Of a stretch of 39,493 nt of DNA, positions 2 to 21,453 are shown one piece after another. The notes beneath the pieces were generated by a model, which was given only the letters and a program-made list of their open reading frames with translations, did no database searches and was not told the origin of the DNA. This DNA is from Clostridiales bacterium. Lineage in GTDB: Bacteria > Bacillota > Clostridia > Lachnospirales > Lachnospiraceae. The stretch covers positions 1-39,493 of the forward strand of contig JAJQCD010000026.1 of assembly GCA_021202925.1 (NCBI GenBank). The letters are read 5' to 3'. The number at the start of each line of letters is the position of its first letter. Within the stretch, counting starts at the first letter, position 1. Both the position numbers and the translations under genes were made by a program.

Positions 2-1117
2 CAGAGCATGGACGAATACAATCAGGCATTGACCGATCAGGGATACAGTGAAACCTATTATCTGAGAAAGATCCTGTTGGGTTGTCTGAGACTGCAGGAT
101 GAGGTTGCCGAGGAAGATCAGGAGTTTACACTGGAAAGCAATGGCGCCACCCTGACGTCTTCCACGGCGAGTATGGATGAGGACAGTGAGTTTGTCTGGG
201 AGAGGATCAGTGAGGATGAGACGACGATCGAGGCAGCGACCATCAAAAACATTGCCGGTTTTTCCAAAGGCGGGGACAGCTACGAGATCTGGCGGCTGTC
301 GCTGACAAAGGACGGCGAGAACGTCGTCCCGCTTTACCCGGTGACGGTCACGCTGCCGGTGCCGGAGGGGCTGTCTGTGGAGACCCTGTCTGTCACAAGG
401 AAGAATGATCAGAGGATTACCGGAGAGTGGAGCAAGATCGGCACACTGGACGAGGATTCACGGACGATCACGGCGACGCCGGACGTCAATTATATCAACG
501 CGGACTATGTGTTCTATGACCGGGGCGAGGTGCTGCAGGAGAGCGAGCTTGCCGAACTGGAGGAGGGCCTGTATCAGGTGCAGGTGACGACGTCGCATGC
601 TTCGGTGGCGTATACATATTCCATGAGCAACGCGGCCTTTGCGGACAACACCGGTTATCTGGAGGTGCTGAGCAAGGGGAGCGATTACCGGCTCTATGTC
701 GAGATGCAGCCGGTCTATGTGGCGGGATCAGACGGATATATGTCTGCGGTCCATTATTACGATGGTTCGGATAATTCAACCCGCGAGGAGGCGGAGTATC
801 TGAGCTACCACGTCTGGGATGAAGGCACAGAGGATGAGACCACGGTTTATACTGACTGGGAGGAGACCTATCATCTGCAGTATCCGCGGCGGTTGTCGAT
901 GCCGCTCCAGGAAGCGCTTAGCGACGGGAGCTATCAGGTGAGCTTTATCATACCGATCATGGACAGCTTCAGCGGGACTCCGGGAGACGGGAGCGCGCTG
1001 GCCTACGCCCGCCTGCGGCTGATCAAGGGAACGCTGGAGGAGATAGAGGACGGAGTCAACCCGCTGGCGGGATATGACAAGTCTGTGCTGTTGGCATTGA
1101 TCACAGAGACGGAGTAG
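2..1117 (+). CDS. NEAT/FIVAR giant surface protein, N-terminal part (cut by window edge, ends at in-frame TAG)
   Basis: The frame is already open at base 2, so the true start lies left of the window. The visible residues begin with a beta-rich domain (about nt 125-550) resembling the one near the C terminus of the downstream part. Next comes a NEAT-like domain (about nt 560-1040; it contains S-M-S-N-A-A-F and ends ARLRLIKG) and the first helix of a FIVAR module. NEAT domains bind heme or heme proteins at the Gram-positive surface; FIVAR modules are three-helix spacers. The frame stops at TAG (1115-1117) in the middle of the FIVAR helix (ITETE-stop-YLATLED). The same frame continues open to 8452 with the rest of that module, so this is the front of one protein, not a separate gene. 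It may be a truncated secreted product, or readthrough may rejoin it. Confidence 0.75.
   Translation, partial: QSMDEYNQALTDQGYSETYYLRKILLGCLRLQDEVAEEDQEFTLESNGATLTSSTASMDEDSEFVWERISEDETTIEAATIKNIAGFSKGGDSYEIWRLSLTKDGENVVPLYPVTVTLPVPEGLSVETLSVTRKNDQRITGEWSKIGTLDEDSRTITATPDVNYINADYVFYDRGEVLQESELAELEEGLYQVQVTTSHASVAYTYSMSNAAFADNTGYLEVLSKGSDYRLYVEMQPVYVAGSDGYMSAVHYYDGSDNSTREEAEYLSYHVWDEGTEDETTVYTDWEETYHLQYPRRLSMPLQEALSDGSYQVSFIIPIMDSFSGTPGDGSALAYARLRLIKGTLEEIEDGVNPLAGYDKSVLLALITETE
1115..1117 (+). other. Premature in-frame TAG inside a FIVAR module
   Basis: TAG interrupts a frame that is open and homologous on both sides. Within the same protein another FIVAR module reads AAAEQYLEETG where this one reads TETE-stop-YLATLED, so the expected residue is Gln. 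The simplest origin is one CAG-to-TAG transition. Confidence 0.8.
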
Positions 1118-1309
1118 TATCTCGCGACGCTGGAGGACGGCGATGTAAAGGACGCCCTGGAGGCGGCGCTGGAGACGGCGAAGGCCGCTTATGAGGAGGA
1201 GCTCACGGAGGAGGAGCTCCTGGCGGCGGTCGCGGCGCTGCAGCAGGCTCTGGAGGACGCCGGCGGCGGGAGCGACAGCGAACAGACGCTGACGGACGGG
1301 GTCTATACG

Positions 1310-4300
1310 GTGCCTCTCACGGTGTACAATTCGGATCTGGATACGGAATCCGGGCGCAAGGATTACTTTGGCGAGACCGCCGGGGTGACTGTCTCGGGGA
1401 GCGAGATGGAGATCGTTGTCAGCATGCAGGAGGTAAACGGCGATACGGTGACCGGGCTTTATTATCTGGATGAGGCTTCCGGGGAATACGAGGAGGCCGA
1501 ACCGACGCTCGCGGAGGATGGGAGCGTGGAGAGCTTCCTTCTGAATCTGGCATATACAGAGGAGCGGATCGGGATTTACTTTGTGACTGAGAAGTATACC
1601 TATGAGACCTATGCGGATCTGTGGCTTGATCTTGCGAATGCGGAGAAGGAGATGGCGTCGGACGAGAGTGTGCAGGCGCTGGAGAGCCGGATCGAGGAGA
1701 TCCGGACATGGGATTCGTCCGATTACACGGCGAGTTCCTGGGAAGCGCTGATGCAGGCGGTCGAAGAGGTGGAAGTCGTCCTCGAGGCGAACACGGGAAG
1801 CTATACGCTGTCGCTGATCACGGCGCAGAGCGCGAAGCTGGAGGCGGCAGTCAGTGCTCTGGTGGATCTGACGGATTTGCGGACGTGGATTGAGACAGCG
1901 GAGGCGCTGGACGAAGAGAATTACCGGAAAGCGTCTTATGCGGCGTTAACAGAAGCGATCGAAACGGCAACCGGGGTCTTAAACCAGGAGGACGCGACCG
2001 GGGATGAGGTTCTCGAACAGGTGACGGCATTAAAAGCGGCGATCCGCGGGCTGCTGGCGGTGGATCATCTGGCGGACGGACAGTATTCGTTGCCGTTTAC
2101 CTACTGGAAGCAGACGAATACGTCGTCGAACAATAAAGTCATGGTAAACGTGACCGAGGAGGTCGATGTGATAGTCGACGGCGACCAGATGACGGTTATC
2201 CTGACGATGCAGGAGCATCCGACCGGCGCGAAGTGGGCGACCGCGTGTTATTACAACCCGGACGGGACGACGTCGACGGCGGACGCGTGGAGCGCGGAGG
2301 CGACGCAGACCGATGAGGAAGGTCACATCACGGAATTCCAGTATACGATGGACTACACGGAAGAGTGGATTCCGATGCACATGACCTATAACAATGTTTA
2401 TCAGTCCGGATATCTGGACATGGATTTTGACACAGCGACCGTAACGGTGTTAAAGGGCGACGCGACGGAGCTGACCGCCCTGGTGGAGAGCACAGCGGAA
2501 CTGGAGGAAAGCACGTATACGGCTGACAGCTGGGCAGCGTTTACGGAGGTCCTGACGGCAGCTGAGACGGTACTGGCAAAGGAGATGCCGGAGCAGGAGG
2601 AGCTGGATGAACAGACCGCCCTGCTGCAGGCGGCGATCGAGGCCCTGATTGCCAGAGGGGATACCAGTACACTGGAGGAACAACTGGCGGCAGCAGAGCA
2701 GTATCTGGAGGAGACCGGGACTTATCAGAAGTCTTCCCTGGAAGATCTGGCGGAGGTAATCAGCGAGATCCGGGCCGCGCTCGAATCGGCGGACAATCTC
2801 TCGCAGGACGATGTGGACGCGCTGGCAGAGACTCTGCAGGCGGCGATCGACGCGCTGGAGGAACGGCTCCTGCAGGATGGAACCTATATCGTTCCGGTGA
2901 CTGTCTATGACGCGGGCGAGGATACCGTATCGGCGCTGCAGGGATATTTTGACACCGCGCAGATTACGCTGGACGGCGACGAGATGCAGGTGACCCTCTA
3001 TACGCAGGAAGTGGACGGCGACACGGTGACGGAGCTTTTCTACTACGATGGGATGGAGTACCAGTCCGCGGAGGCGGGAAGCGGCGGCTATACCTTTACC
3101 GTGGAGTATACGGACGAACGGCTGGAAATCTATATCCTGACGGATAACCGGAATTATGCCTCCTATCTTGAGGTAAGCCTGGATGAGGAGAGCGCGACCG
3201 AGGAGGAGGCGTCCGAGGAGGCCGTTGAGGCGCTGAGGGAGAGCCTGGCACAGGCGACGGCGCTTACAGAGACGGATTATACGGCCGACTCTTGGGCAAA
3301 CATGACGGCGGTAATCGCCGGGATCGAGGAAACGCTGGCTTCACAGGAGAGCTTTACGGAAAATGAGATCAGCCGGCTCAGCAGCCGGTTAGCTGAGGCG
3401 ATGAGCGCTTTGGTGGATCTGACGGAGCTGAGGGCATGGATCGAGACGGCGGAGAATGTAGACGCGGAAAAGTACCGGGAAGCGTCGTACACGGTGCTGA
3501 CGGAAGCGATCGAGGCGGCGACCGAAGTCTTAAACCGGGACGACGCGACCGGGGATGAGGTCCAGGAGCAGGTAACAGCGTTAAAAGCGGCAATTCACGG
3601 CCTGCTGACGGTGGATCAGCTGGCGGACGGACAGTATTCGCTGCCGTTTACCTACTGGAAACAGACCAATACGTCGTCGAATAATAAAGTCATGATAAAC
3701 GTGACCAAGGCGGTGAATCTGCTGGTCGATGGCGATCAGATGACGGTCATCCTGACGATGCAGGAGCACCCGACCGGCGCGAAGTGGGCGACCGCATGTT
3801 ATTACAATCCGGACGGGACGACGTCGACTGCAGATGCATGGAGTGCGGAAGCGACCCAGACCGACGAGGACGGACACATCACGGAATTCCAGTATACGAT
3901 GGACTACACAGAAGAGTGGATTCCGATGCATATGACGTATAATGGAGTTTATCAGTCCGGATATCTGGATCTGGATTTTGACAGCGCGACTGTGACGGTG
4001 TTAAAAGGTGACGCGACGGAGCTGACCGCTCTGGTGGAGAGCGCTGCGGAGCTGGCGGAGAGCGACTATACGGCTGACAGCTGGGCGGCGTTTGCAGAAG
4101 CCCTGGCGGCGGCCGAGACGGTGCTGGCGCAGGAGATGCCGGAGCAGGAGGAACTGGATGAACAGACAGCCCTGCTGCAGGCGGCGATTGACGCACTGGT
4201 GGCAAAAGGCGATGCCACTGCCTTGCAGGCACGGATCGAGCAGGCACAGGCACTGGCAGAGGAGGATTACACGGCAGAGAGCTGGGAGATTCTGGCAGAC

Positions 4301-7300
4301 GCGCTGGCCGCGGCCGAGGAGGTCCTGGCGGACGCGGACAATCTGGGACAGAGCGAACTGGATGAGGCCGAGGAAAATCTGACTGCCGCGATCACCGCGC
4401 TTAAGCTGCGCGGCGATACGTCGGCGCTGGAAGCCCTGATCACGAGCGCAGAAGCATACTTAAGCGGCTCCTACACAGAGGAAAGCCTGGCAAACTTAAG
4501 CGAAGTGCTGGAGGCGGTAAAGAGCGCGATCGAAGACGCGGAAAACCTGACGGCGGATGAGGTGGCGGAACTGGAGCAGCAGCTGCAGGAGGCCATAGAC
4601 AGTCTGGAAGCCGAGGAGACAGAATCAACCGCGAAATATAAGCTCAGGATTCTGATCGAATCCTGCTATTACGAGGAGGAGGATTACACCGAAGAGACCT
4701 GGAGCGTCTATGCCGAGGCGCTGGCCAATGCGGAAAACGTTTACGCGGATTCATCCATGACGGACGACGACTACAAGGAAGCCTACACGGCGCTTCTGGA
4801 GGCGATCGACCAGCTGGCAGAATACGACGAAGCGGCGGAGGCGCTGGCGGAGTGGGTCGCTCTGGCCGAGGAGCTGAAGGAAACGATCGGAGAGACAAAC
4901 AGCGGATACGAGGAAACCAGCTGGGCGGCTTATGTGGCTGCGCTCTCCATGGCGGACGAGGATAATCCATATTCTCTGACCGACGCGCAGATCCGCTCGC
5001 AGATCGCGTGGCTGGAATGGGAGTCCGAGGCGCTCATCCTCCTGTCGGATCTGGAATCTGATGCGGGTACGAGCACGGCTTCCGTGGCGTCCCTGATCTG
5101 GGATACCTATGAGGAGAACGCGATCTCCGTGGCGAGCGAGGATGAAGAGGCAGAAATTGCGCTGATTGACGATCTGGAAGACGAGGAGGACGAAGAAGAG
5201 GAAGAGACCACGGCGAGCAGTGCCGCGGAGACGAGTGCAACTGTTTTCGAGGAAATGGCTGTTTCCACGGAGACAGAAGCCGAGACCGAAGCTTCGGGAA
5301 AGACGGAAGCAGAGGAGGAAACCGGAGCGGCAGCAGAAACGGATGCAGCCGATGAGACAGAAGCGGAGAAGGAAACCGAAGAGGAGACGGCAGTCGAAAC
5401 CGAGACGGAAGACGAAGCAGAGGAAGAGACCGAGGCGGAATCTGAGGAAGACGAATCTGAGGAAAAAGCTGAAGACGAAGAAGCCGAGGATGAGGAAACG
5501 GCAGATGAGGAAGATGCCAAACAGGATACCGATGAATTAAAAATCAGTCGTTCCCGTTCTTATCTGTCCCTGTTCCGACTGGGAAGCTCGTTAGCGAGCG
5601 GCAGCAATGCGCAGACGAAAGAGACCGAGACCACAACAACTTCCCTGATGACAAGCGCAGCGGCGGTCAGCGTGGCATCTGTGGCGAGCGAGGATGACGA
5701 CCCGGACGATGGCACATATACGGTGAATTATGCGCTGTATAAGTACGATGAAGAGAAGACGTCCATGGGCAATCCCGCCTTTGTGAAACCGGCGACGGTT
5801 ATTATCGAGGACGGGGAAGCAACCGTTTACATGGAGCTGCAGGGAATGACCTATTCCAGTTTGTACGGCCATCTTCTGAGCATCCAGCTGATGACCAATC
5901 TGGTGACGGATTCGGACGGAGTGATTGAGTCCTATAAGCTGGTGGATCCGGTTTACGTGGTCTATACGGACGAGACGGATGATTACGGACCGCCGGCAGG
6001 TGAAAAATATCCGCAGATCGTGGGACACGAGATTCCCCTGTATCAAACCAATACGCCGGTGCTGGTGAATGTGCCGGTCATGGGTTCCAGTGCGGAACAG
6101 CCCGCGCGGCTGAGAATTTACTGGGATACCCTGACGTATCAGAGCTCATCGACCAATATTGACGGCAGTATCGACGTGACGGAAGAAGAGGAAGAAACGG
6201 TTACGGAGACCCTGGATTATGACAATCTGAACGACGCCATCGACGCCTTTGACGAGGCGACCAGCGATACGTCTGTCTGGCTCAGCGCATCATATTACGC
6301 GGCGCTCAAGAGCAGGACGGCGGGCAAGACGCTGCTGACATTGAGCGGGGCGACGCAGACGATGGTGGATGAGCGGACGACTGCTCTGAATCTGGCGATC
6401 AGCGCCCTGGTGCCGGTGGCGACAGACGATGAACGGGCAGAACTGGAAGCAAAGATTGAGGAAGCGGAAGGCTATTCCATCAGCGACTATACGGAGGACT
6501 CCTACCAGAATCTGGCGCAGGCGGTCATCGACGCGGATAAGCTGCTGATGGAGACGGACATTACCTCCGGCATGGTAGCAAAGCAGATCAAGGCGTTGGA
6601 TAAGGCAATCAGCGCTCTGGTAGAGGACACCTCGACAGACGTGAAGACTTCGGAGCTGGAGCTTTGGATCAGTACGGTGAAGAGCTACCTGGTTTCCGAC
6701 GATTACACAACCGCCAGCAAGAGCAATCTGGTCGAGGCATTGTATGAAGCGGTGGAAGTCCTGGCCAACCAGGACGCGACGCAGGACGAGGTTGACGCGC
6801 AGGTAACCGCGCTGAAAGCAGCGGTAAGCGCACTGGAGAAGGCCGTGGATAAGAGTACGCTTTATGATCTCCTCGCGGAGGCCTGGACGTATTCGTCCGA
6901 CGATTACACGAGTGAGAGCTACAGCGCACTGGTAGAGGCACTGGCCGTGGCGACCTTTGTCTACAAGGATACGTCGGCCACGTCCGATACGGTGAGCCTG
7001 GCGGCAGCGGAGCTGCAGACCGCGATTCTTAATCTGGTCAGCACGACTTCGGATGAGAGCAGCACGACCTCCTCCGCGGAGGAACTGCTGTACAGCTGGA
7101 TGCAGGTGGCGGCAGGGTATTCCTCCAGCGACTATACGGAGGATTCCTGGGCGGAGCTGGCGACGGCGCTGGCAAGCGCGCGCCAGGTCTATGTGAGCGC
7201 GAGCTCGACCTCGGCGGAGAAGAAAGCAGCCGCGCTGGATATCCAGACCGCGATCAACGGCCTGGTAGCGGTCAGCGACTCCTCGTCGGACAGCAGCACA

Positions 7301-8452
7301 GGCAGCTCGAGCTCGGTCAGCACCGATGAGGCGTATTACACGGTGAAGGTGCGACTGTGGCATTCGACTTTAAATAAGGCGTCCATGGGCGATGACGCCG
7401 TGGTCACCAAGGCATATGTCCACGTCGACGGCGACCAGACGACCATGCGTCTGCTGACCAAGAAGATGACGGTCAGCGGCATCACGGCCCATCTTCATGA
7501 TTTCTGGATTTATGACGGAACGGATTACGAGGAGGCGGAGCTGATCTCGACGGAGAACAGCCGGTGGATCTATGAGTTTGAGTTGCCGGACAATTCCTCT
7601 ACCTATTATAAATGTAAGGTTGACCCGCAGGTCGACGTCATGGGCGACGACCCGGTCAAGGCGCGGCTGAAGGTGAGCTGGACATCGTTAGACGAGATCG
7701 ACGAGGACGACTGGGATGATCTGGAGGGCGACACCGACGATGAGGATGAGAGCAACACCTATTCCGGTTATACGTCGAGCAGCGATTACAGCACGGAGCT
7801 GGTTCATGAAGAGACCGGTATCCGCGTGAAGGGCAATACCGGCGGCCCGGGCGTCGTGCTGATGGCAGAGAAAAAGGAAGAAGGAGATGATTATGAACGT
7901 GCGACCCGCGTGCTCGCGGGCGTGGCGGAGCGGCTTGTCGTCTATGACATCAAGCTGCGCTCCGGAGAAAGTACGGTACAGCCGACGGCGGCGGTGACGC
8001 TTAAGATTCCGATCCCGGTAGACTATGACGTCAGCAAGCTGGTCCTTTACCGGATCAACGACGACGGCACGTCAGACCGGATCGAGGGCGCGGTCAACGG
8101 GCTCTACTACGAGGCCAGCGTGGAGCATTTCAGTATTTACACGCTGATCGAGAGCAATGCCGTACAGACGGCGGCGGCTCCGGTGAGTACCGGCAGCGCG
8201 GGCGGAAGTTCCACGCGCAATACCGGGAACACATCCGGGACGAAGAGCAGCTCCGGCAGCAGCAGAAGCAGCGCCGCGGAAGCCGCCGATGACGCGCAGG
8301 AGAGCGGCAAGGTGGTGCAGATGGTAGCCGGACGGGTGATCCCGTACACCGGAGACCGCATGCCGGTGAAGGAGCTGATGGGACTTACCGTTCTGTCTGT
8401 CCTGATTTTTGCCGGGACAGCCGTTGGCGATAAGAGAAGAGAAAGAAGATAA
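1310..8452 (+). CDS. Giant NEAT/FIVAR cell-wall-anchored protein, C-terminal part (possible heme-binding surface protein)
   Basis: This 2,380-residue reading frame really continues from 1118. The GTG at 1310 has no convincing ribosome site, so it is the downstream part of the gene interrupted at 1115. Modules in order: NEAT-like (about 1295-1650), two FIVAR, NEAT (2070-2450), two FIVAR, NEAT-like (2875-3180), two FIVAR, NEAT (3620-4010), about five FIVAR, a Glu/Thr-rich acidic linker (about 5130-5530), NEAT (5710-6150), about five FIVAR, NEAT (7330-7690), and a beta domain (7800-8150). The Ser-rich tail ends in IPYTG (8339-8353), a hydrophobic stretch and KRRERR, an LPXTG-like sortase signal. 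The two modules near 2070 and 3620 carry YQSGY, matching the YxxxY heme-ligand pattern of NEAT domains. Heme scavenging at the surface is inferred. Roughly 2,400 codons without a further stop argue for recent or current selection. Confidence 0.8.
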   Translation: MPLTVYNSDLDTESGRKDYFGETAGVTVSGSEMEIVVSMQEVNGDTVTGLYYLDEASGEYEEAEPTLAEDGSVESFLLNLAYTEERIGIYFVTEKYTYETYADLWLDLANAEKEMASDESVQALESRIEEIRTWDSSDYTASSWEALMQAVEEVEVVLEANTGSYTLSLITAQSAKLEAAVSALVDLTDLRTWIETAEALDEENYRKASYAALTEAIETATGVLNQEDATGDEVLEQVTALKAAIRGLLAVDHLADGQYSLPFTYWKQTNTSSNNKVMVNVTEEVDVIVDGDQMTVILTMQEHPTGAKWATACYYNPDGTTSTADAWSAEATQTDEEGHITEFQYTMDYTEEWIPMHMTYNNVYQSGYLDMDFDTATVTVLKGDATELTALVESTAELEESTYTADSWAAFTEVLTAAETVLAKEMPEQEELDEQTALLQAAIEALIARGDTSTLEEQLAAAEQYLEETGTYQKSSLEDLAEVISEIRAALESADNLSQDDVDALAETLQAAIDALEERLLQDGTYIVPVTVYDAGEDTVSALQGYFDTAQITLDGDEMQVTLYTQEVDGDTVTELFYYDGMEYQSAEAGSGGYTFTVEYTDERLEIYILTDNRNYASYLEVSLDEESATEEEASEEAVEALRESLAQATALTETDYTADSWANMTAVIAGIEETLASQESFTENEISRLSSRLAEAMSALVDLTELRAWIETAENVDAEKYREASYTVLTEAIEAATEVLNRDDATGDEVQEQVTALKAAIHGLLTVDQLADGQYSLPFTYWKQTNTSSNNKVMINVTKAVNLLVDGDQMTVILTMQEHPTGAKWATACYYNPDGTTSTADAWSAEATQTDEDGHITEFQYTMDYTEEWIPMHMTYNGVYQSGYLDLDFDSATVTVLKGDATELTALVESAAELAESDYTADSWAAFAEALAAAETVLAQEMPEQEELDEQTALLQAAIDALVAKGDATALQARIEQAQALAEEDYTAESWEILADALAAAEEVLADADNLGQSELDEAEENLTAAITALKLRGDTSALEALITSAEAYLSGSYTEESLANLSEVLEAVKSAIEDAENLTADEVAELEQQLQEAIDSLEAEETESTAKYKLRILIESCYYEEEDYTEETWSVYAEALANAENVYADSSMTDDDYKEAYTALLEAIDQLAEYDEAAEALAEWVALAEELKETIGETNSGYEETSWAAYVAALSMADEDNPYSLTDAQIRSQIAWLEWESEALILLSDLESDAGTSTASVASLIWDTYEENAISVASEDEEAEIALIDDLEDEEDEEEEETTASSAAETSATVFEEMAVSTETEAETEASGKTEAEEETGAAAETDAADETEAEKETEEETAVETETEDEAEEETEAESEEDESEEKAEDEEAEDEETADEEDAKQDTDELKISRSRSYLSLFRLGSSLASGSNAQTKETETTTTSLMTSAAAVSVASVASEDDDPDDGTYTVNYALYKYDEEKTSMGNPAFVKPATVIIEDGEATVYMELQGMTYSSLYGHLLSIQLMTNLVTDSDGVIESYKLVDPVYVVYTDETDDYGPPAGEKYPQIVGHEIPLYQTNTPVLVNVPVMGSSAEQPARLRIYWDTLTYQSSSTNIDGSIDVTEEEEETVTETLDYDNLNDAIDAFDEATSDTSVWLSASYYAALKSRTAGKTLLTLSGATQTMVDERTTALNLAISALVPVATDDERAELEAKIEEAEGYSISDYTEDSYQNLAQAVIDADKLLMETDITSGMVAKQIKALDKAISALVEDTSTDVKTSELELWISTVKSYLVSDDYTTASKSNLVEALYEAVEVLANQDATQDEVDAQVTALKAAVSALEKAVDKSTLYDLLAEAWTYSSDDYTSESYSALVEALAVATFVYKDTSATSDTVSLAAAELQTAILNLVSTTSDESSTTSSAEELLYSWMQVAAGYSSSDYTEDSWAELATALASARQVYVSASSTSAEKKAAALDIQTAINGLVAVSDSSSDSSTGSSSSVSTDEAYYTVKVRLWHSTLNKASMGDDAVVTKAYVHVDGDQTTMRLLTKKMTVSGITAHLHDFWIYDGTDYEEAELISTENSRWIYEFELPDNSSTYYKCKVDPQVDVMGDDPVKARLKVSWTSLDEIDEDDWDDLEGDTDDEDESNTYSGYTSSSDYSTELVHEETGIRVKGNTGGPGVVLMAEKKEEGDDYERATRVLAGVAERLVVYDIKLRSGESTVQPTAAVTLKIPIPVDYDVSKLVLYRINDDGTSDRIEGAVNGLYYEASVEHFSIYTLIESNAVQTAAAPVSTGSAGGSSTRNTGNTSGTKSSSGSSRSSAAEAADDAQESGKVVQMVAGRVIPYTGDRMPVKELMGLTVLSVLIFAGTAVGDKRRERR
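1860..4210 (+). repeat. Two-copy internal duplication, period 1,551 bp (FIVAR-NEAT-FIVAR)
   Basis: The block starting near ALVDLT (about 1860) recurs 1,551 bp (517 codons) later. Long stretches are nearly identical at both protein and DNA level, for example GAKWATACYYNPDGTTST and the YQSGY motif (2399-2413 and 3950-3964). The first-copy NEAT spans about 2070-2450 and the second about 3620-4010. The spacing is a whole number of codons, so copy number could change without breaking the frame. Confidence 0.85.
8339..8353 (+). other. Sortase-like sorting motif IPYTG
   Basis: IPYTG is an LPXTG variant placed 33 residues from the C terminus. It is followed by a hydrophobic segment (LMGLTVLSVLIFAGTAVG) and a basic tail (KRRERR). 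That is the standard layout of a cell-wall sorting signal. No sortase gene is visible in the window. Confidence 0.7.
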
Positions 8453-8460
8453 CATGGCTG

Positions 8461-8487
8461 CGGGGAACCGGGTATACCGGTTCCCCG
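8461..8487 (+). terminator. Perfect 11-bp hairpin after the NEAT gene
   Basis: CGGGGAACCGG (8461-8471) pairs perfectly with CCGGTTCCCCG (8477-8487) around a 5-nt loop, just after the TAA at 8450-8452. There is no T-run, so it may stabilise the 3' end or act as an imperfect terminator. Confidence 0.5.
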
Positions 8488-8599
8488 TGCCGCGGCCTCT
8501 CCGGGGTCGTAGCGGGCGTTCCAGGTGTGAAATGTGTCTGGAACATCTGTCAGAGCCCCGGAAGTTTTGCATAAAAAAGCGGTAGCAGGAGTTGAGAAT

Positions 8600-9013
8600 A
8601 TGAAACGAATATTAAATGGAATCTGTGTGGCGCTGGCCTTTTTCTGTGTCGGCATCGGCTGTGTGGGGATCGTGTTGCCGATCCTGCCGACGACGCCTTT
8701 TTTGCTTTTGGCGGTGGTGTTATTTGCGAAGGGATCGGAGCGGTTTCACCGCTGGTTTTTATCCACGGGACTGTATCGAAGGTATCTGGCGGATTTTGTG
8801 GCGACGCGGTCGATGACCCGGCGGGCGAAGAGTCGCGTGCTTGTCGTCGTGACCGTTCTTGTTACGGTCGGGTTTATCTTTTCGCCATGGTTTGCCCGGA
8901 TCATCCTGGCAGTAGTTCTGGTATTTCATTATGTTTATTTTATCTTTGGGATTCGAACCATAGCAGAGGAGGGAGAGAATGATCAAGAAGCGTCTGGTCA
9001 GTCTGCTGGCTGA
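8600..9013 (+). CDS. DUF454 (YbaN-like) small inner-membrane protein
   Basis: The 137-residue product has hydrophobic segments at about residues 5-45 and 78-115. Its conserved-looking core (GIGCVGIVLPILPTTPFLLLA followed by RFHRWF) matches the DUF454/YbaN family of integral membrane proteins, whose biochemical role is not established. I chose the ATG at 8600 because AGGAG (8587-8591) lies at good spacing; the frame extends upstream to 8534 without a better start. The gene overlaps the start of the cydD-like gene at 8979 by 35 bases, so the two are probably co-translated. That places it in the same unit as the ABC transporter and suggests a shared job, perhaps in heme or redox-cofactor handling. 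That link is inference from context only. Confidence 0.8.
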   Translation: MKRILNGICVALAFFCVGIGCVGIVLPILPTTPFLLLAVVLFAKGSERFHRWFLSTGLYRRYLADFVATRSMTRRAKSRVLVVVTVLVTVGFIFSPWFARIILAVVLVFHYVYFIFGIRTIAEEGENDQEASGQSAG

Positions 9014-9296
9014 TGCAAAGAAACAGATTGCCTGGAATGTGTTCTGGCAATGGGTCGGGCTGATGGCTTCGATCATTATGATGGGGACGGCGGGCCGGTT
9101 GCTTGCTTGCGCGGCCGATATGCTGGCTGGCTCTGGTGAACACATGAATCGGGAGCTGGCCGTTTCGGCTGTGGTGATTCTGGCGGCTGTCGCGGTGCGT
9201 CTGGTGTGCGCCAGGCAGGCGGCGCGGGCTTCCTTTCTCGCGGGACGGGACGTCCGCAGCAGGCTGCGGAGCCTGTTGTATCAGAAGCTCACGTGA
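8979..9296 (+). pseudogene. cydD: CydD-like ABC transporter, N-terminal fragment ending at in-frame TGA
   Basis: The ATG at 8979 follows GGAGGGAGAG and overlaps the end of the DUF454 gene. The 105 residues cover transmembrane helices 1 and 2 of a type IV (CydD-family) ABC exporter half (WQWVGLMASIIMMG and the helix before RQAARASF). They stop at TGA (9294-9296) in LYQKLT-stop-LGASYHEK. The frame continues without shift in the next 1.5 kb with the rest of the transporter. CydD homologues usually have a coding residue here, commonly Arg before LG, so one CGA-to-TGA transition would explain the break. On its own this piece cannot form a transporter. Whole-gene length would be about 616 residues, close to the family norm. 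Confidence 0.75.
9294..9296 (+). other. Premature in-frame TGA in cydD
   Basis: TGA lies between ACG and CTG in a frame that is open both before (from 8979) and after (to 10829). The flanks read KLT-stop-LGASY, matching the KLxxLG region at the second helix of CydD-type proteins. Confidence 0.8.
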
Positions 9297-9320
9297 CTGG
9301 GCGCTTCCTATCATGAGAAG

Positions 9321-10829
9321 GTGTCCACGGCGCAGGCGGTTCAGGTGGCGGTCGAGGGCGTGGAGCAGCTGGAGGTTTATTTCGGAAAATATCTGCCGCA
9401 GCTTATTTACAGCGTCCTGGCGCCGGTGACGCTGTTTGTGGCGCTGGCTCCGATCAGTGTGCGGGCGGGCGCGGTGTTGCTCCTTTGCGTGCCGCTCATT
9501 CCGCTGACGATTGTCGCGGTGCAGCGGATCGCGAAGCGTCTGCTGGGCAAATACTGGGATGTGTATACGGAGCTTGGGGACAGCTTTCTGGAAAATCTGC
9601 AGGGTCTGACGACGCTGAAAATCTATCAGGCGGACGGGCAGAAAGCGCAGGAGATGGATCGGGAGGCGGAGGAATTTCGCAGAATCACGATGAAGGTGCT
9701 GATGATGCAGCTCAATTCGATCATTGTCATGGATGTCGTTGCCTACGGCGGCGCGGCGGTCGGGATGATGGTCGTGCTTGGTGAATTTTTTGCCGGACGC
9801 GTCGGGATCGGCGGCGCGGCGACGGTGATTCTGCTTTCTGCGGAATTTTTTCTGCCCATGCGGCTGCTCGGCTCTTATTTTCATATCGCCATGAACGGCA
9901 TGGCGGCGTCGGATCAGCTGTTTGCGATCCTTGATATTCCGGAGGAGGTGAAGGGAACCGGAACTTTGCCGGACGGGCCGCTTGGGGTAGAGTTTTCTCA
10001 TGTGGATTTCTCTTATGAGGAGGATCGCATGGTGCTGCGGGACGTTTCCCTTCGGATACCGGAGCGCGGGATGGTCTCGCTTGTCGGCGTATCCGGCTGT
10101 GGGAAGAGTACGGTGGCGGCGGTTACCGCCGGGAGTCGCACCGGATACCGGGGAAGTGTGCGGATCGGCGGCATGGAGCTGGGCGGGATCGCGGAGGAGA
10201 GTCTGCTTTCTCATGTCACCCTGGTCGGATCTTACAGTTATCTTTTTAAGGGAACCGTAGAGGAGAATCTGCGGCTTGCGACGCCGGAAGCGTCGGAGGC
10301 GGAGCTGATCGCCGCGTTAAAAAAGGTGAATCTGTATGATTTTCTTGTGACGCAGAAGGGGCTGGCAACGGAGCTTACCGAGCGCGGATCAAACCTGTCC
10401 GGCGGACAATGCCAGCGGCTGGCGCTCGCGCGGGCGCTGCTGCACGACACGCCGGTCTATATCTTTGACGAGGCGACGTCCAATATCGACGTCAAGAGTG
10501 AGAATCAGATCATGGAGGTAATTCGTGAGCTTGCGTGTGATCACGCGGTTCTTTTCATCTCACACCGCCTGGCAAATGTCGTTGGTTCCGACCGGATCTA
10601 TGTTTTGCATCAGGGGCAGATCGCCGGGGAGGGGACGCATGCGGAGCTGATTGAAAAAGGCGGCAGGTACGCCGCGCTTTACCGGGAGCAGAGAGCGCTT
10701 GAGGAGTATGGTCTGGATCAGGCGGAGGCAGAGAAGGATGAAAAAATTCCGATTGTGCGGACAGATGGCAGGCCGGGCAGTGTGACTGCGGTGCGGACGG
10801 ATGAGAGGGGAGTGATGCGCTATGCGTAG
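9321..10829 (+). CDS. cydD: CydD-like ABC transporter, C-terminal part (membrane helices 3-6 and ATPase)
   Basis: The frame is open from 9297 directly after the TGA. GTG at 9321 is the first possible start but has no clear ribosome site. It holds the remaining transmembrane helices (EQLEVYFGKYLPQLIYSVLAP and following), then an ABC ATPase with Walker A GVSGCGKST, signature LSGGQ, Walker B VYIFDEATSNID and H-loop ISHRLA. E. coli CydDC supports cytochrome bd assembly and has been reported as a cysteine/glutathione exporter and as a heme transporter. No cydAB is visible here. The end overlaps the cydC start by 8 bases, so the pair was built to be made together. Without the first two helices the half-transporter is probably non-functional unless the TGA is read through. 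Confidence 0.78.
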   Translation: MSTAQAVQVAVEGVEQLEVYFGKYLPQLIYSVLAPVTLFVALAPISVRAGAVLLLCVPLIPLTIVAVQRIAKRLLGKYWDVYTELGDSFLENLQGLTTLKIYQADGQKAQEMDREAEEFRRITMKVLMMQLNSIIVMDVVAYGGAAVGMMVVLGEFFAGRVGIGGAATVILLSAEFFLPMRLLGSYFHIAMNGMAASDQLFAILDIPEEVKGTGTLPDGPLGVEFSHVDFSYEEDRMVLRDVSLRIPERGMVSLVGVSGCGKSTVAAVTAGSRTGYRGSVRIGGMELGGIAEESLLSHVTLVGSYSYLFKGTVEENLRLATPEASEAELIAALKKVNLYDFLVTQKGLATELTERGSNLSGGQCQRLALARALLHDTPVYIFDEATSNIDVKSENQIMEVIRELACDHAVLFISHRLANVVGSDRIYVLHQGQIAGEGTHAELIEKGGRYAALYREQRALEEYGLDQAEAEKDEKIPIVRTDGRPGSVTAVRTDERGVMRYA

Positions 10830-12495
10830 GTCGGGAATCCGGATCATGGCAGAGTTAATCGGACTGGTACGTCCGCTAGCGCCGGTGATGCTGGCGGCGA
10901 TCCTGTTTGGGACGGTCGGATATCTGTGCGCCATTTTTCTGACGGTACTGGCAGGAGCGGGACTTCTCATGGGGCTGGGGCAGCCGGTTCCGTCCTTTTT
11001 CCCGGATCGTACTTCCCTTCTTTTTTCTGCGCTGGCGGTGATCGCCGTGCTTCGGGGCGTGCTGCATTACCTCGAGCAGCAGTGCAATCACGATATTGCC
11101 TTTCGGCTGCTTGCCCTGATCCGCCATCAGGTTTTTGAGGCGCTGCGCAGGCTTTGTCCGGCGAAGCTGGAGGGAAAGGACCGGGGAAATCTGATCTCGG
11201 TTCTTACCTCGGATATTGAGCTTCTGGAGGTTTTTTATGCACATACCATTTCCCCGATTGCGATCGCGGTACTGACCAGCCTGGTCATGATCCTTTTTAT
11301 CGGCAGCTTTCATCCGCTCTGTGGAGCGCTGGCTCTGACCGGATATCTCACAGTCGGGGGGGCGCTTCCTCTGATAAATGGCAGGAGGGGCCGGGAGGCG
11401 GGGATGGTTTACCGCAACCGCTTTGGCGAGATGACCAGCTTTGTGCTTGACAGTCTGAGGGGATTGCGCGAGACGCTGCAGTACGGAGGCGGCGAACGAC
11501 GGCTTCACGAGCTGAATCGCCGGTCCGATGAGCTGGCCGGATGTCAGGAACGCTTAAAAAAACTGGAAGGAGATTCCAGCGCGGTTACGGGGATGTGTAT
11601 TTCGCTGTTTTCCTTTGGGGTGCTGTTTTTGAATCTGTTTCTTCATGGACGGGGACAGATGGATGTTTCCGGCGTGGTACTTGGGAGCATTGCCATGATG
11701 AGCTCGTTCGGGCCGGTTACCGCGCTCTCGAATCTTTCCAACAATCTGTCGCAGACGCTGGCCTGCGGAGAGCGCGTCTTGTCTGTGCTGGAGGAGACGC
11801 CGCAGGTGGAGGAGGTTGCCGGGGAGTCAGAGATTTCTTTTGACGGAGCCGGATTGCACGGGGTGACGTTTTCCTATCCGGGCTCCGAGGCTGTCCTGGA
11901 TGAGGTGACGATAGGTTTCCCGGCGGGAAGGATCGTGGGGATCCATGGCCGCAGCGGTTCCGGAAAATCTACGATCCTAAAGCTGCTGATGCGCTTCTGG
12001 GACGTCGGGCAGGGATGCGTGAAAATTTCCGGTCGGGATGTGCGTGAGGTGAATACCGGAAATCTGAGAGACATGGAGGCTTATGTCACTCAGGAGACGG
12101 TTCTGTTTCATGACTCGATTGCCGCCAATATCGCGATCGGAAAGATCGGCGCGAGCCGGGAGGAGGTGATCGCCGCGGCCAGGAAAGCGTCGATCCATGA
12201 GGCGATTGAAGCGCTGCCGCGGGGGTATGATACGCCGGTAGCGGAGCTGGGCGACAGCCTCTCAGGCGGCGAGCGTCAGCGGATCGGCCTTGCGCGCGCA
12301 TTCCTGCACGATGCGCCGTTTCTGCTGCTGGACGAGCCGACGTCCAATCTGGACAGCCTGAATGAGGGCGTGATCCTGAAGGCGTTAAAGGAGGAGAAGG
12401 AAGATCGGACCGTGGTGCTTGTCTCGCACAGGGACTCGACGATGAAGATCGCGGACTGCGTGCTGGAAATGCAGGCTGGAAGGAGAAGATCATGA
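10822..12495 (+). CDS. cydC: CydC-like ABC transporter half (membrane + ATPase)
   Basis: This intact 557-residue half-transporter has six predicted membrane helices in the first 300 residues. The ATPase has Walker A GRSGSGKST (residues 376-384), signature LSGGERQR, Walker B FLLLDEPTSNLD and H-loop VSHRDS. It overlaps the 3' end of the cydD part by 8 bases, which is typical of translationally coupled CydD-CydC partners. The start at 10822 has a GGGGAG ribosome site about 9 bases upstream; an in-frame ATG also follows at 10846. The substrate is inferred to be heme or thiols by family. Next to a NEAT protein and a DtxR-type regulator, heme or iron handling is the more attractive reading. Other type IV ABC exporters cannot be excluded from sequence alone. 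Confidence 0.8.
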   Translation: MRRSGIRIMAELIGLVRPLAPVMLAAILFGTVGYLCAIFLTVLAGAGLLMGLGQPVPSFFPDRTSLLFSALAVIAVLRGVLHYLEQQCNHDIAFRLLALIRHQVFEALRRLCPAKLEGKDRGNLISVLTSDIELLEVFYAHTISPIAIAVLTSLVMILFIGSFHPLCGALALTGYLTVGGALPLINGRRGREAGMVYRNRFGEMTSFVLDSLRGLRETLQYGGGERRLHELNRRSDELAGCQERLKKLEGDSSAVTGMCISLFSFGVLFLNLFLHGRGQMDVSGVVLGSIAMMSSFGPVTALSNLSNNLSQTLACGERVLSVLEETPQVEEVAGESEISFDGAGLHGVTFSYPGSEAVLDEVTIGFPAGRIVGIHGRSGSGKSTILKLLMRFWDVGQGCVKISGRDVREVNTGNLRDMEAYVTQETVLFHDSIAANIAIGKIGASREEVIAAARKASIHEAIEALPRGYDTPVAELGDSLSGGERQRIGLARAFLHDAPFLLLDEPTSNLDSLNEGVILKALKEEKEDRTVVLVSHRDSTMKIADCVLEMQAGRRRS

Positions 12496-13475
12496 AGATC
12501 AGGAGAATGACAGGGAGAAAACGGGCGGTGCTTGTGTTGCTTTCTGTCTGTCTGATGGCAGGCGGCTCAACGCAGGCGTTCGCTTCGGACACGATTGATG
12601 CCGTGAAGGTGACATTTACCGTGGCCGGGCTGGATGCGGACGGGATTCCTCTGATTGAGGGAGAGACAAAGAGCAGGGAGTATACGATCAACGAAATCAG
12701 TATTCTGGAGGATTATGAAGTCACCCGCGATTATGATTTTGATGATGAGGACGGGGTCAGTGATGGAAGCGACCCAAACCGGATCGGAAATCTTGGAAAC
12801 CGTGTTTATGTTGACGCGGGGCCGGGCAGTGCGAGCGGTAACCAGGGAAGCGGCCTGGCGTCGGACGACGAGGACGGGGAGCTTGTGGACGATTCGGATG
12901 AGACATTTGACAGTGTGTATGGGCTGACCACGACGAACCGGGATGAGATTGAGGCGCTGATTGCAGAGGAATACAAGAACAGCGGACTGCTTTCCTACAA
13001 TCTGACCTGCCGTAGCATGGGGCTTCTGTCCGGCCTGACTTATGTCATAACGTTTGATGCGGAGGAGGGATATATTTTCAGTATTGACACGGAAAAACTC
13101 CGTCTGGACGGGCTTGGCGCAACGTATCTCAAGCACGAGCGGGAGGACAGTCGGAAAAAGCTGATTCTCTATGTGAGGTTTGACGAACTGGACAGTCTTG
13201 CGTGGGAAATTGAGAACCCTGGCTGGTCATCGGAGGAGGTGGGAATCGCCGAGTGGGGAGACTCTGTGAGCGGTTCTCCGGCCTGGTATGAGCTGCGGCT
13301 GGAGCGGGGGACGAGCCGTGCGGCCGAAGGAAAGATTACCGGGGCGACTGCGTACGATTTCCGGCCTTACATGCTGACGGAGGGAGAATATGTCTATTCC
13401 ATTCGACCGGTTTCGGACAGCGGAGAGAAGGGAGACTGGCGGACGTCGACCGGTTGCCGGGTCAGTGCGGAATAG
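12492..13475 (+). CDS. Exported cell-wall protein, N-terminal part (broken by in-frame TAG)
   Basis: The ATG overlaps the cydC stop (ATGA) and follows GGAAGGAG, so the gene is translationally coupled to the transporter. A signal peptide (KRAVLVLLSVCLMAGG, cleavage near QAFA-SD) leads into a secreted domain with an acidic Asp/Glu-rich insert (about 12730-12920). A fibronectin-like stretch (AWYELRLERG, VYSIRPVSDSGEKGDW) follows. The 327 residues end at TAG (13473-13475). The frame then stays open for 348 bases encoding cell-wall-binding repeats. The intact paralogue at 28600-29577 aligns through this point (GDW...SREQA against GDW...SAE-stop-A), showing that the stop replaces a Gln. If translated only to the TAG, the protein would be secreted without its wall-binding tail. 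Confidence 0.8.
   Translation: MKIRRMTGRKRAVLVLLSVCLMAGGSTQAFASDTIDAVKVTFTVAGLDADGIPLIEGETKSREYTINEISILEDYEVTRDYDFDDEDGVSDGSDPNRIGNLGNRVYVDAGPGSASGNQGSGLASDDEDGELVDDSDETFDSVYGLTTTNRDEIEALIAEEYKNSGLLSYNLTCRSMGLLSGLTYVITFDAEEGYIFSIDTEKLRLDGLGATYLKHEREDSRKKLILYVRFDELDSLAWEIENPGWSSEEVGIAEWGDSVSGSPAWYELRLERGTSRAAEGKITGATAYDFRPYMLTEGEYVYSIRPVSDSGEKGDWRTSTGCRVSAE
13473..13475 (+). other. Premature in-frame TAG before the wall-binding repeats
   Basis: TAG sits after GTC-AGT-GCG-GAA. The paralogue at 28600-29577 has GAA-CAG-GCG at the aligned place, so a single CAG-to-TAG change accounts for the interruption. Confidence 0.8.
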
Positions 13476-13823
13476 GCCGCAGAGAATCGGGCGCGGTTCG
13501 GACTGGAGATCGAAGAGGTGTTTGACGGGGACGGGCCGCCGGTTGAGACCATTTATCATAACGTGGGCTGGATGCAGAGTGAGGACGGCAGGTGGTGGTA
13601 TCACGAACAGGATGGCGGCTATGTGCAGCAGAACTGGCAGGAATCGGAGGGAGAGTGGTATTTCTTTGATGAATACGGGTTCCTGGAGACTGACGCCTAT
13701 ATCAGATGGGGAAAGAATATCTATTATGTGGATAAGGACGGACGTATGATAACGGAAGGATGCGCGCCGGACGGCAGACAGGTGCAGGAGGACGGCAGCC
13801 TGAAATGGCCGGATCCGGCGTGA
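13476..13823 (+). pseudogene. Detached cell-wall-binding repeat tail of the broken surface protein
   Basis: This continues the frame of the gene at 12492 after the TAG. It encodes wall-binding repeats with the W-x-x-x-x-G-x-W-Y-Y/F pattern (NVGWMQSEDGRWWYHEQ, NWQESEGEWYFFDEYGF, IYYVDKDGRM), matching the tail of the 28600 protein. GTG at 13518 has a GGAG-like stretch about 10 bases upstream and could in principle reinitiate, but without a signal peptide the product would stay inside the cell. It is best read as the 3' end of a 443-codon gene. The stop is TGA at 13821. Confidence 0.7.
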
Positions 13824-13896: not shown

Positions 13897-14280
13897 ATGG
13901 AAGAATCCGGTGAGAATTATCTGAAGGCGATCTATATCCTCGGACAGAGGAACGGGACGGTTCGGAACAAGGATCTCGTCGAATATATGGGATATTCAAA
14001 AGCAAGCGTCAGCGTTGCCGTACACCGGCTGGAGAAGAAGGGCTATGTTGCAATTGACAGGAAGAAGCTGGTTCTTACAGAGGAGGGGAAACGGCGGTCG
14101 CAGCGTGTGCTGGAACAATATGAGTTCTGGCGTGACGTCCTGATCCACTGGGGAATCGGGGAGATTGATGCGGAGCGGGAAGCCTGTTCCATTGAACACG
14201 CCCTGAGTAATGAGACCTTCGAACGTGTGCGGGATCATCTTGGGTGGAAGTCGGATGGTGCTTCGCGGGCGGATTCATAA
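13897..14280 (+). CDS. DtxR/IdeR-family metal-dependent repressor
   Basis: This 127-residue protein has an N-terminal winged helix (ENYLKAIYILGQRNG, YSKASVSVAVHRLEKKGYV) and a dimerisation/metal-binding segment. The motif EACSIEHALS places Cys97, Glu100 and His101 where DtxR/IdeR have Cys102, Glu105 and His106 of the main metal site. The Cys favours an iron-type regulator over MntR, which has Glu there. The N-terminal ligand (DtxR Met10) looks like Asn here, and there is no C-terminal SH3-like domain, so metal preference is uncertain. The ATG follows AGAGGTG. Its position just after the NEAT/CydDC/surface-protein block suggests it controls that block in response to iron (inference). No operator was identified. 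Confidence 0.82.
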   Translation: MEESGENYLKAIYILGQRNGTVRNKDLVEYMGYSKASVSVAVHRLEKKGYVAIDRKKLVLTEEGKRRSQRVLEQYEFWRDVLIHWGIGEIDAEREACSIEHALSNETFERVRDHLGWKSDGASRADS

Positions 14281-20367: not shown

Positions 20368-21453
20368 ATGGGAAGAGTATACAACTTTTCGGCTGGTCCG
20401 GCGGTACTGCCGGAGGAGGTTCTGAGAGAAGCCGCAGCAGAGATGCTGGACTATGATGGCACCGGCATGTCCGTAATGGAGATGAGTCACCGGTCGAAGG
20501 CTTTTGAGAAGATCATCGGTGATGCGGAGCAGGACATTCGCGATCTGATGCAGATTCCGGATAATTATAAGGTGTTGTTTCTGCAGGGCGGTGCGCATCT
20601 GCAGTTTTCCGCGATTCCGCAGAACCTGATGAAAAATGGAGTTGCCGATTATATCATTACCGGGCAGTGGGCGAAGAAGGCGTTCAAGGAAGCGCAGAAG
20701 TATGGCCGGGCGGTTGCGGTTGCATCCAGCGAGGATAAGACCTTCAGCTATATTCCGGACTGTTCGGATCTGCCGATCGATGAGGACGCAGATTATGTAT
20801 ACATCTGCGAGAACAATACGATCTATGGCACAAAGTATAAGAAGCTGCCCAACACGAAGGGCAAGACGCTGGTGGCGGATGTGTCTTCCTGTTTCCTGTC
20901 TGAGCCGATTGATGTGACGAAATATGGCCTGATCTACGGAGGCGTTCAGAAAAATGTCGGCCCGGCGGGTGTGGTGATCGTGATTATCCGTGAAGATCTG
21001 ATCACGGAGGATGTGCTTCCCGGCACGCCGACCATGTGCCAGTACAAGATTCACGCCGATGCGAAGTCCCTGTACAATACGCCGCCGTGCTACGGCATCT
21101 ATATCTGCGGCAAGGTCTTCAAATGGCTGAAGAAGCAGGGCGGCCTGGAAGCGATGAAGGAGATCAATGAGAAGAAGGCAAAAATCCTTTATGATTTCCT
21201 CGATGAAAGCAAACTGTTCCACGGACCGGTTGTGAAGGAAGATCGTTCTCTGATGAATGTGACGTTTGTGACGGGTGATGCGGATCTGGATGCGCAGTTT
21301 ATCAAAGAAGCGACGGCTGCGGGTTTTGTGAACCTGAAGGGCCATCGGAGCGTGGGCGGTATGAGAGCCAGCATTTATAATGCGATGCCGATCGAGGGCG
21401 TGCAGAAGCTGGTTGAGTTTATGAAAGCATTCGAGGAGGCGCACCAGGCATGA
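20368..21453 (+). CDS. serC: Phosphoserine aminotransferase
   Basis: SerC transfers an amino group from glutamate to 3-phosphohydroxypyruvate, the second step of serine synthesis, and also acts in vitamin B6 synthesis in some bacteria. The 361-residue PLP fold-type I enzyme starts NFSAGPAVLPEEVL and contains FLQGGAHLQFSAIP. The PLP-binding Lys195 lies in YGGVQKNVGPAG, and the C-terminal GHRSVGGMRASIYNAMP is typical of SerC. I chose ATG at 20368 because AGGAGG (20353-20358) precedes it; an in-frame extension to 20260 crosses the leader and looks non-coding. The stop overlaps the serA start (ATGA), so the two are translationally coupled. Confidence 0.94.
   Translation: MGRVYNFSAGPAVLPEEVLREAAAEMLDYDGTGMSVMEMSHRSKAFEKIIGDAEQDIRDLMQIPDNYKVLFLQGGAHLQFSAIPQNLMKNGVADYIITGQWAKKAFKEAQKYGRAVAVASSEDKTFSYIPDCSDLPIDEDADYVYICENNTIYGTKYKKLPNTKGKTLVADVSSCFLSEPIDVTKYGLIYGGVQKNVGPAGVVIVIIREDLITEDVLPGTPTMCQYKIHADAKSLYNTPPCYGIYICGKVFKWLKKQGGLEAMKEINEKKAKILYDFLDESKLFHGPVVKEDRSLMNVTFVTGDADLDAQFIKEATAAGFVNLKGHRSVGGMRASIYNAMPIEGVQKLVEFMKAFEEAHQA

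Follow-up and report, generated by a model that had tools for sequence, protein, structure and literature searches.

Single in-frame stops in three genes of a NEAT, CydDC-like and choline-binding protein cassette: recent gene decay weighed against draft sequence error

Three neighbouring genes that are each interrupted by exactly one in-frame stop raise the question of whether they are decaying, are decoded past their stops, switch on and off, or have been misread. The genes lie in a window of 39,493 bases, the whole stretch of DNA analysed here, which constitutes an entire contig (C5) of the 3.17 Mb draft genome G000 (39 contigs; listed completeness 100%, contamination 1.04%); the contig edge cuts the first gene of the window. 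The host is inferred to be a gut commensal, as most named relatives of its CydD-like gene come from gut genomes of Lachnospiraceae type. Comparison genomes were drawn from the same genus, with one genome per species. The three stops are observations on the assembly, and the organism itself may or may not carry them.

The interrupted genes and their homologues

Translation places the single stops at 1115-1117 (TAG), 9294-9296 (TGA) and 13473-13475 (TAG), with the frame open on either side of each, confirming for the assembly what a sequence-only reading of this DNA had reported. The features of the cassette are as follows.

2..1117, + strand, NEAT/FIVAR wall protein, piece before TAG 1115, 5' end off the contig
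1118..8452, + strand, NEAT/FIVAR wall protein, piece after the TAG, 2,444 open codons with FIVAR repeats and NEAT domains
8600..9013, + strand, DUF454 membrane protein, intact, ATG start at 8600 picked by eye (mechanical ORF starts at 8534)
8979..9296, + strand, CydD-like ABC subunit, piece before TGA 9294
9297..10829, + strand, CydD-like ABC subunit, piece after the TGA, membrane region and ATPase
10822..12495, + strand, CydC-like ABC subunit, intact
12492..13475, + strand, choline-binding-repeat surface protein, piece before TAG 13473
13476..13823, + strand, choline-binding-repeat surface protein, piece after the TAG, weak choline-binding-repeat matches
13897..14280, + strand, MntR/DtxR-like metal regulator adjoining the cassette, below curated cut-offs
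6801..12480, no strand, tract of low synonymous divergence to genome G007, borders approximate

The piece before the first stop has no Pfam match at E<=0.001 and has homologues in genomes G013 and G014. The open frame after that stop, whose length agrees with the more than 2,400 codons claimed earlier, ends in a wall-sorting-like tail recognised by eye and matches the NEAT family PF05031 with 115.9 bits against a curated cut-off of 32.8, two of its six single NEAT domains exceeding the cut-off individually. In a profile search of the genome, all six NEAT domain matches fell in this gene (2..8452). The best NCBIfam matches of the two ABC genes lie below their cut-offs, namely CydD (TIGR02857) with 348.7 against 435, scored on the piece after the stop only, and CydC (TIGR02868) with 316.6 against 329.05. 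The first stop sits in a FIVAR-type repeat, the second towards the end of the initial 105 codons of the CydD-like subunit, and the third precedes the choline-binding-type repeats.

Homology on both sides of the stops, also proposed earlier, was borne out: proteins of other genomes align across each site and carry ordinary residues in the stop column. A filtered homology scan yielded 79 such alignments at 9294, two at 1115 and one at 13473, and a separate homologue comparison 109, three and three proteins, respectively, one of the three spanning 13473 being a paralogue within the window. The genes thus show the hallmark of nonsense pseudogenes, an in-frame stop that homologues lack, with few homologues at 1115 and 13473. 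The CydD frame is intact in G007 of the same genus (618 codons), and a single open frame of 1,128 codons in G013 spans both sides of the 1115 site; together with the homologues across all three sites, these intact copies mean that the stops are derived in G000. No frameshift pattern was seen at the three sites. The claim that housekeeping genes are unbroken holds insofar as the window scan revealed no other clean break, but homologues covered only 27.8 of the 39.5 kb.

Spread, exchange and constraint of the cassette

The cassette is accessory, with CydD present in four of 24 genus genomes including G000 (E<=1e-60, at most 63 candidates scored per genome). The order NEAT protein, CydD, CydC and choline-binding-type protein recurs at four loci (L092, L093, L094 and L021), while L012 has no choline-binding-type protein within its flank and L013 has CydD and CydC only. 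Among the 80 best-matching named CydD loci, the fetched flanks contain CydC in all 80 cases and a NEAT-like neighbour in 12. In G007 the cassette is followed by leuB and ilvD, whereas the flanks fetched for G013 and G014 yielded neither. A search of the 24 genus genomes gave no match to cytochrome bd subunit I in any of them, and the CydDC-like genes therefore do not serve that oxidase. Judging from the NEAT domains, from which genes lie alongside and from the MntR/DtxR-like regulator, the cassette presumably handles heme or iron at the cell surface.

Synonymous divergence between G000 and G007 is uneven along the locus. Values of dS are 0.13-0.16 in cydD, cydC and the C-terminal part of the NEAT gene. 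They are higher elsewhere: the NEAT part just before that has a dS of 0.60, the choline-binding gene 0.37-0.59 and RNase Y 0.65, and the values for leuB, ilvD, ilvB, serC and the gene at 21450 span 0.72-1.16. In 400-base bins, the two genomes share 91-98% of nucleotides from 6800 to 12400 and 76-90% in most other bins, with exceptional bins outside the tract at 4800 (96%) and 13600 (92%). The low-dS tract, window positions 6801-12480, aligns to positions 2041-9238 of L092 in G007. Because its dS is so much lower than the 0.37-1.16 nearby, the pattern is best explained by, and suggests, a recent inter-species exchange of the NEAT/cydDC part of about 5.7 kb. The CydD stop lies inside this tract and is lacking in G007, and the split between G000 and G007 predates it; the stops at 1115 and 13473 lie outside the tract, and G007's contig stops short of the 1115 site.

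The two sides of the CydD stop have similar dN/dS, and values are low throughout. Against G007 they are 0.19 before the stop, 0.18 after it and 0.17 in CydC, so that the break looks young; in the NEAT part after 6801 the value is 0.06 over 549 codons, a strong constraint that counts against decay. Low dN/dS reflects constraint over the history shared with G007, and is not proof of present translation past the stops. The choline-binding gene of G007 carries, at about 10286-10328 of L092, an 8-base gap and a frame change just ahead of the site that corresponds to the 13473 stop.

Mutational origin of the stops and single-stop genes elsewhere

All three stops had been read as C-to-T changes, with Gln in paralogous sequence at either TAG. 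A single GC-to-AT transition agrees with the homologues at two sites but not at 1115, where the Gln claim also fails: Gln occurs in none of the 12 window stretches that give a residue in the stop column, some of which are not FIVAR repeats, and one window repeat shows it only when anchored by eye. The three intact homologues at this site have other residues. Since for every TAG or TGA there is some codon that a GC-to-AT transition would turn into it, C-to-T explainability in itself says little; the chance of three out of three new stops arising in this way is about 0.02 to 0.15 under assumed mutation rates and near zero with uniform rates. With GC-to-AT supported at only two of the three stops, there is no evidence of a special process. 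Polarised changes in cydDC (eight outgroup loci; 124 further differences unpolarised) were GC-to-AT in 10 of 20 cases along the G000 lineage and in 13 of 22 along that of G007. Damage-like C-to-T error was rejected for want of a GC-to-AT excess in these changes, a weak test on small numbers.

Single-stop genes were surveyed by homology, searching proteins from the other genomes against 439 kb of G000 (about 14% of the genome, window included) and against samples of G016, G013, G015 and G007. Homologues covered 180 kb in G000 (41% of the survey), 113 kb in G016, 98 kb in G013, 126 kb in G015 and 93 kb in G007. Clean single-stop genes numbered five in G000 (three in the window), one each in G016 and G007, and none in G013 and G015; a G016 gene with several stops (331280-331899) was left out of this count. 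The two G000 cases beyond the window, which show that such stops are not special to the surface/heme block, are an OmpR-type response regulator with one TGA in its receiver domain (C18:115475, L104) and an iron-complex-type ABC ATPase with one TAG that adjoins an intact binding protein and permease (C19:21339, L115). The G007 case is a TAG in peptide deformylase just before a conserved motif (L238:471, contig C60), and the G000 copy on C18 is open. Separately, in a genome search for ABC matches with stops, three of four proved to be natural gene ends.

The contrast between G000 and the rest is five in 180 kb versus two in 431 kb (p = 0.027), and shrinks if the dropped rows are kept; these were C19:57601 (a pair of neighbouring genes that form one gene in the homologue), G016:88226 (weak, gapped alignment), and G007_L237:121 and :472, each with one query and judged antisense by eye. 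Without the window the comparison becomes two in 152 kb versus two in 431 kb (p = 0.28). Three of the five clean matches fall in the window's covered share of 27.8 kb (p = 0.029), but the window was picked for this feature, so the evidence for clustering is weak and a local excess of single-stop genes is at most mild. A stop scan based on codon bias only, which caught 1115 and C18:115475 and missed 9294, 13473 and C19:21339, returned six candidates each in G000, G016 and G013, of which four, two and two were without an RBS-preceded start. Given these equal totals, no general excess of broken genes is established in G000.

Decoding and the competing explanations

Recent decay is the most likely of the explanations considered, consensus error is its main and serious rival, and programmed readthrough is unlikely. 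Were the stops read through or suppressed to give full-length proteins, the frames beyond them would be expected to be open and constrained, as they are, and the low dN/dS also fits a translated gene. The genetic code is standard, though: TAG and TGA are common normal stops, ending 58 and 156 of 348 script-called ORFs in the G000 sample (broken pieces counted in), rather than rare or absent as in recoding, and the earlier remark that TAG is not simply a sense codon stands, since TAG ends leuB, ilvB and an RNA methyltransferase-like gene. The proposed search for suppressor tRNAs found no stop-reading anticodon (cta, tca or tta) among 49 typed tRNA matches of the genome, an incomplete set with no His tRNA. 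The best PylS score was 24.9 bits (cut-off 178.15), and the best for tRNA-Sec was 42.5 (cut-off 47), from a locus typed as tRNA-Ser by ARAGORN. Selenocysteine, pyrrolysine and suppressor decoding were rejected on these grounds, and with ordinary residues at the sites in homologues, the readthrough option raised by the sequence-only reading appears very improbable. Within-population on/off variation of surface genes is hardly better placed and we regard it as improbable. Variation of this kind often affects surface and iron genes, and G007 has a different lesion in the same choline-binding surface gene; against this, inspection of the sites by eye showed no repeat-mediated switching element, and point nonsense changes revert slowly.

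Consensus or assembly errors, or minority alleles, in a draft of 39 contigs are a more serious concern, and this option raised in the sequence-only reading stays among the leading two. Peptide deformylase is usually essential, so the TAG in the G007 gene suggests that some single-stop calls in these drafts are errors; the G007 contig also bears Ns and a break in the DUF454 frame, and the window, itself a complete contig, begins with a gene truncated by the contig edge. The polarised cydDC changes with their lack of a GC-to-AT excess speak against error, if weakly, as does the lack at the three sites of a frameshift pattern, which is commoner in many sequencing errors. Error is thus a possible, though not the likely, source of the three stops.

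We consider ordinary and recent nonsense pseudogenisation of an accessory NEAT-CydDC-choline-binding-protein cassette to be somewhat probable. It is favoured because homologues span the sites, CydD is patchy in the genus, other single-stop genes occur in G000, and the choline-binding gene is also broken in G007 by a different lesion. The cassette would be dispensable in this lineage, selection on it would have lapsed, and single nonsense changes may have accrued too recently for further lesions to follow; the breaks would remove working parts, namely the NEAT/FIVAR region with the wall anchor, the bulk of the ABC subunit, and the repeats that bind the wall. Very recent decay of a linked locus, as first suggested, accordingly keeps its place as a leading option, but its being special to one locus is weakly supported. 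A broader version, in which the lineage is shutting down iron/heme acquisition around or just after the inter-species exchange, with the only NEAT protein detected in the genome, the CydDC-like pair, the surface protein and the C19 ABC ATPase each cut by single recent nonsense changes, seems unlikely.

If the stops are real, a gut-type anaerobe has recently lost an accessory heme/iron cassette, and the middle part of that cassette seems to have passed from one species to another not long before the loss; if they are not, they show how draft consensus errors can mimic linked gene decay. Neither decay nor error needs a new mechanism, and the kind of event is well known, which makes the finding largely ordinary. 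Like other bacterial pseudogenes with a single nonsense change, these genes have one in-frame stop, homologues open across it and little other decay, whereas here three such genes stand in one cassette and are known from an assembly. As a large surface protein with NEAT domains, in a gut-type anaerobe, the window protein recalls the clostridial NEAT surface proteins (PMC4143258); unlike those, it has FIVAR repeats, has CydDC-like genes after it and is interrupted. The two ABC genes resemble CydDC exporters in that their best NCBIfam matches are CydD and CydC, and differ from them in falling below the curated cut-offs and in belonging to a genus without a match to cytochrome bd subunit I.
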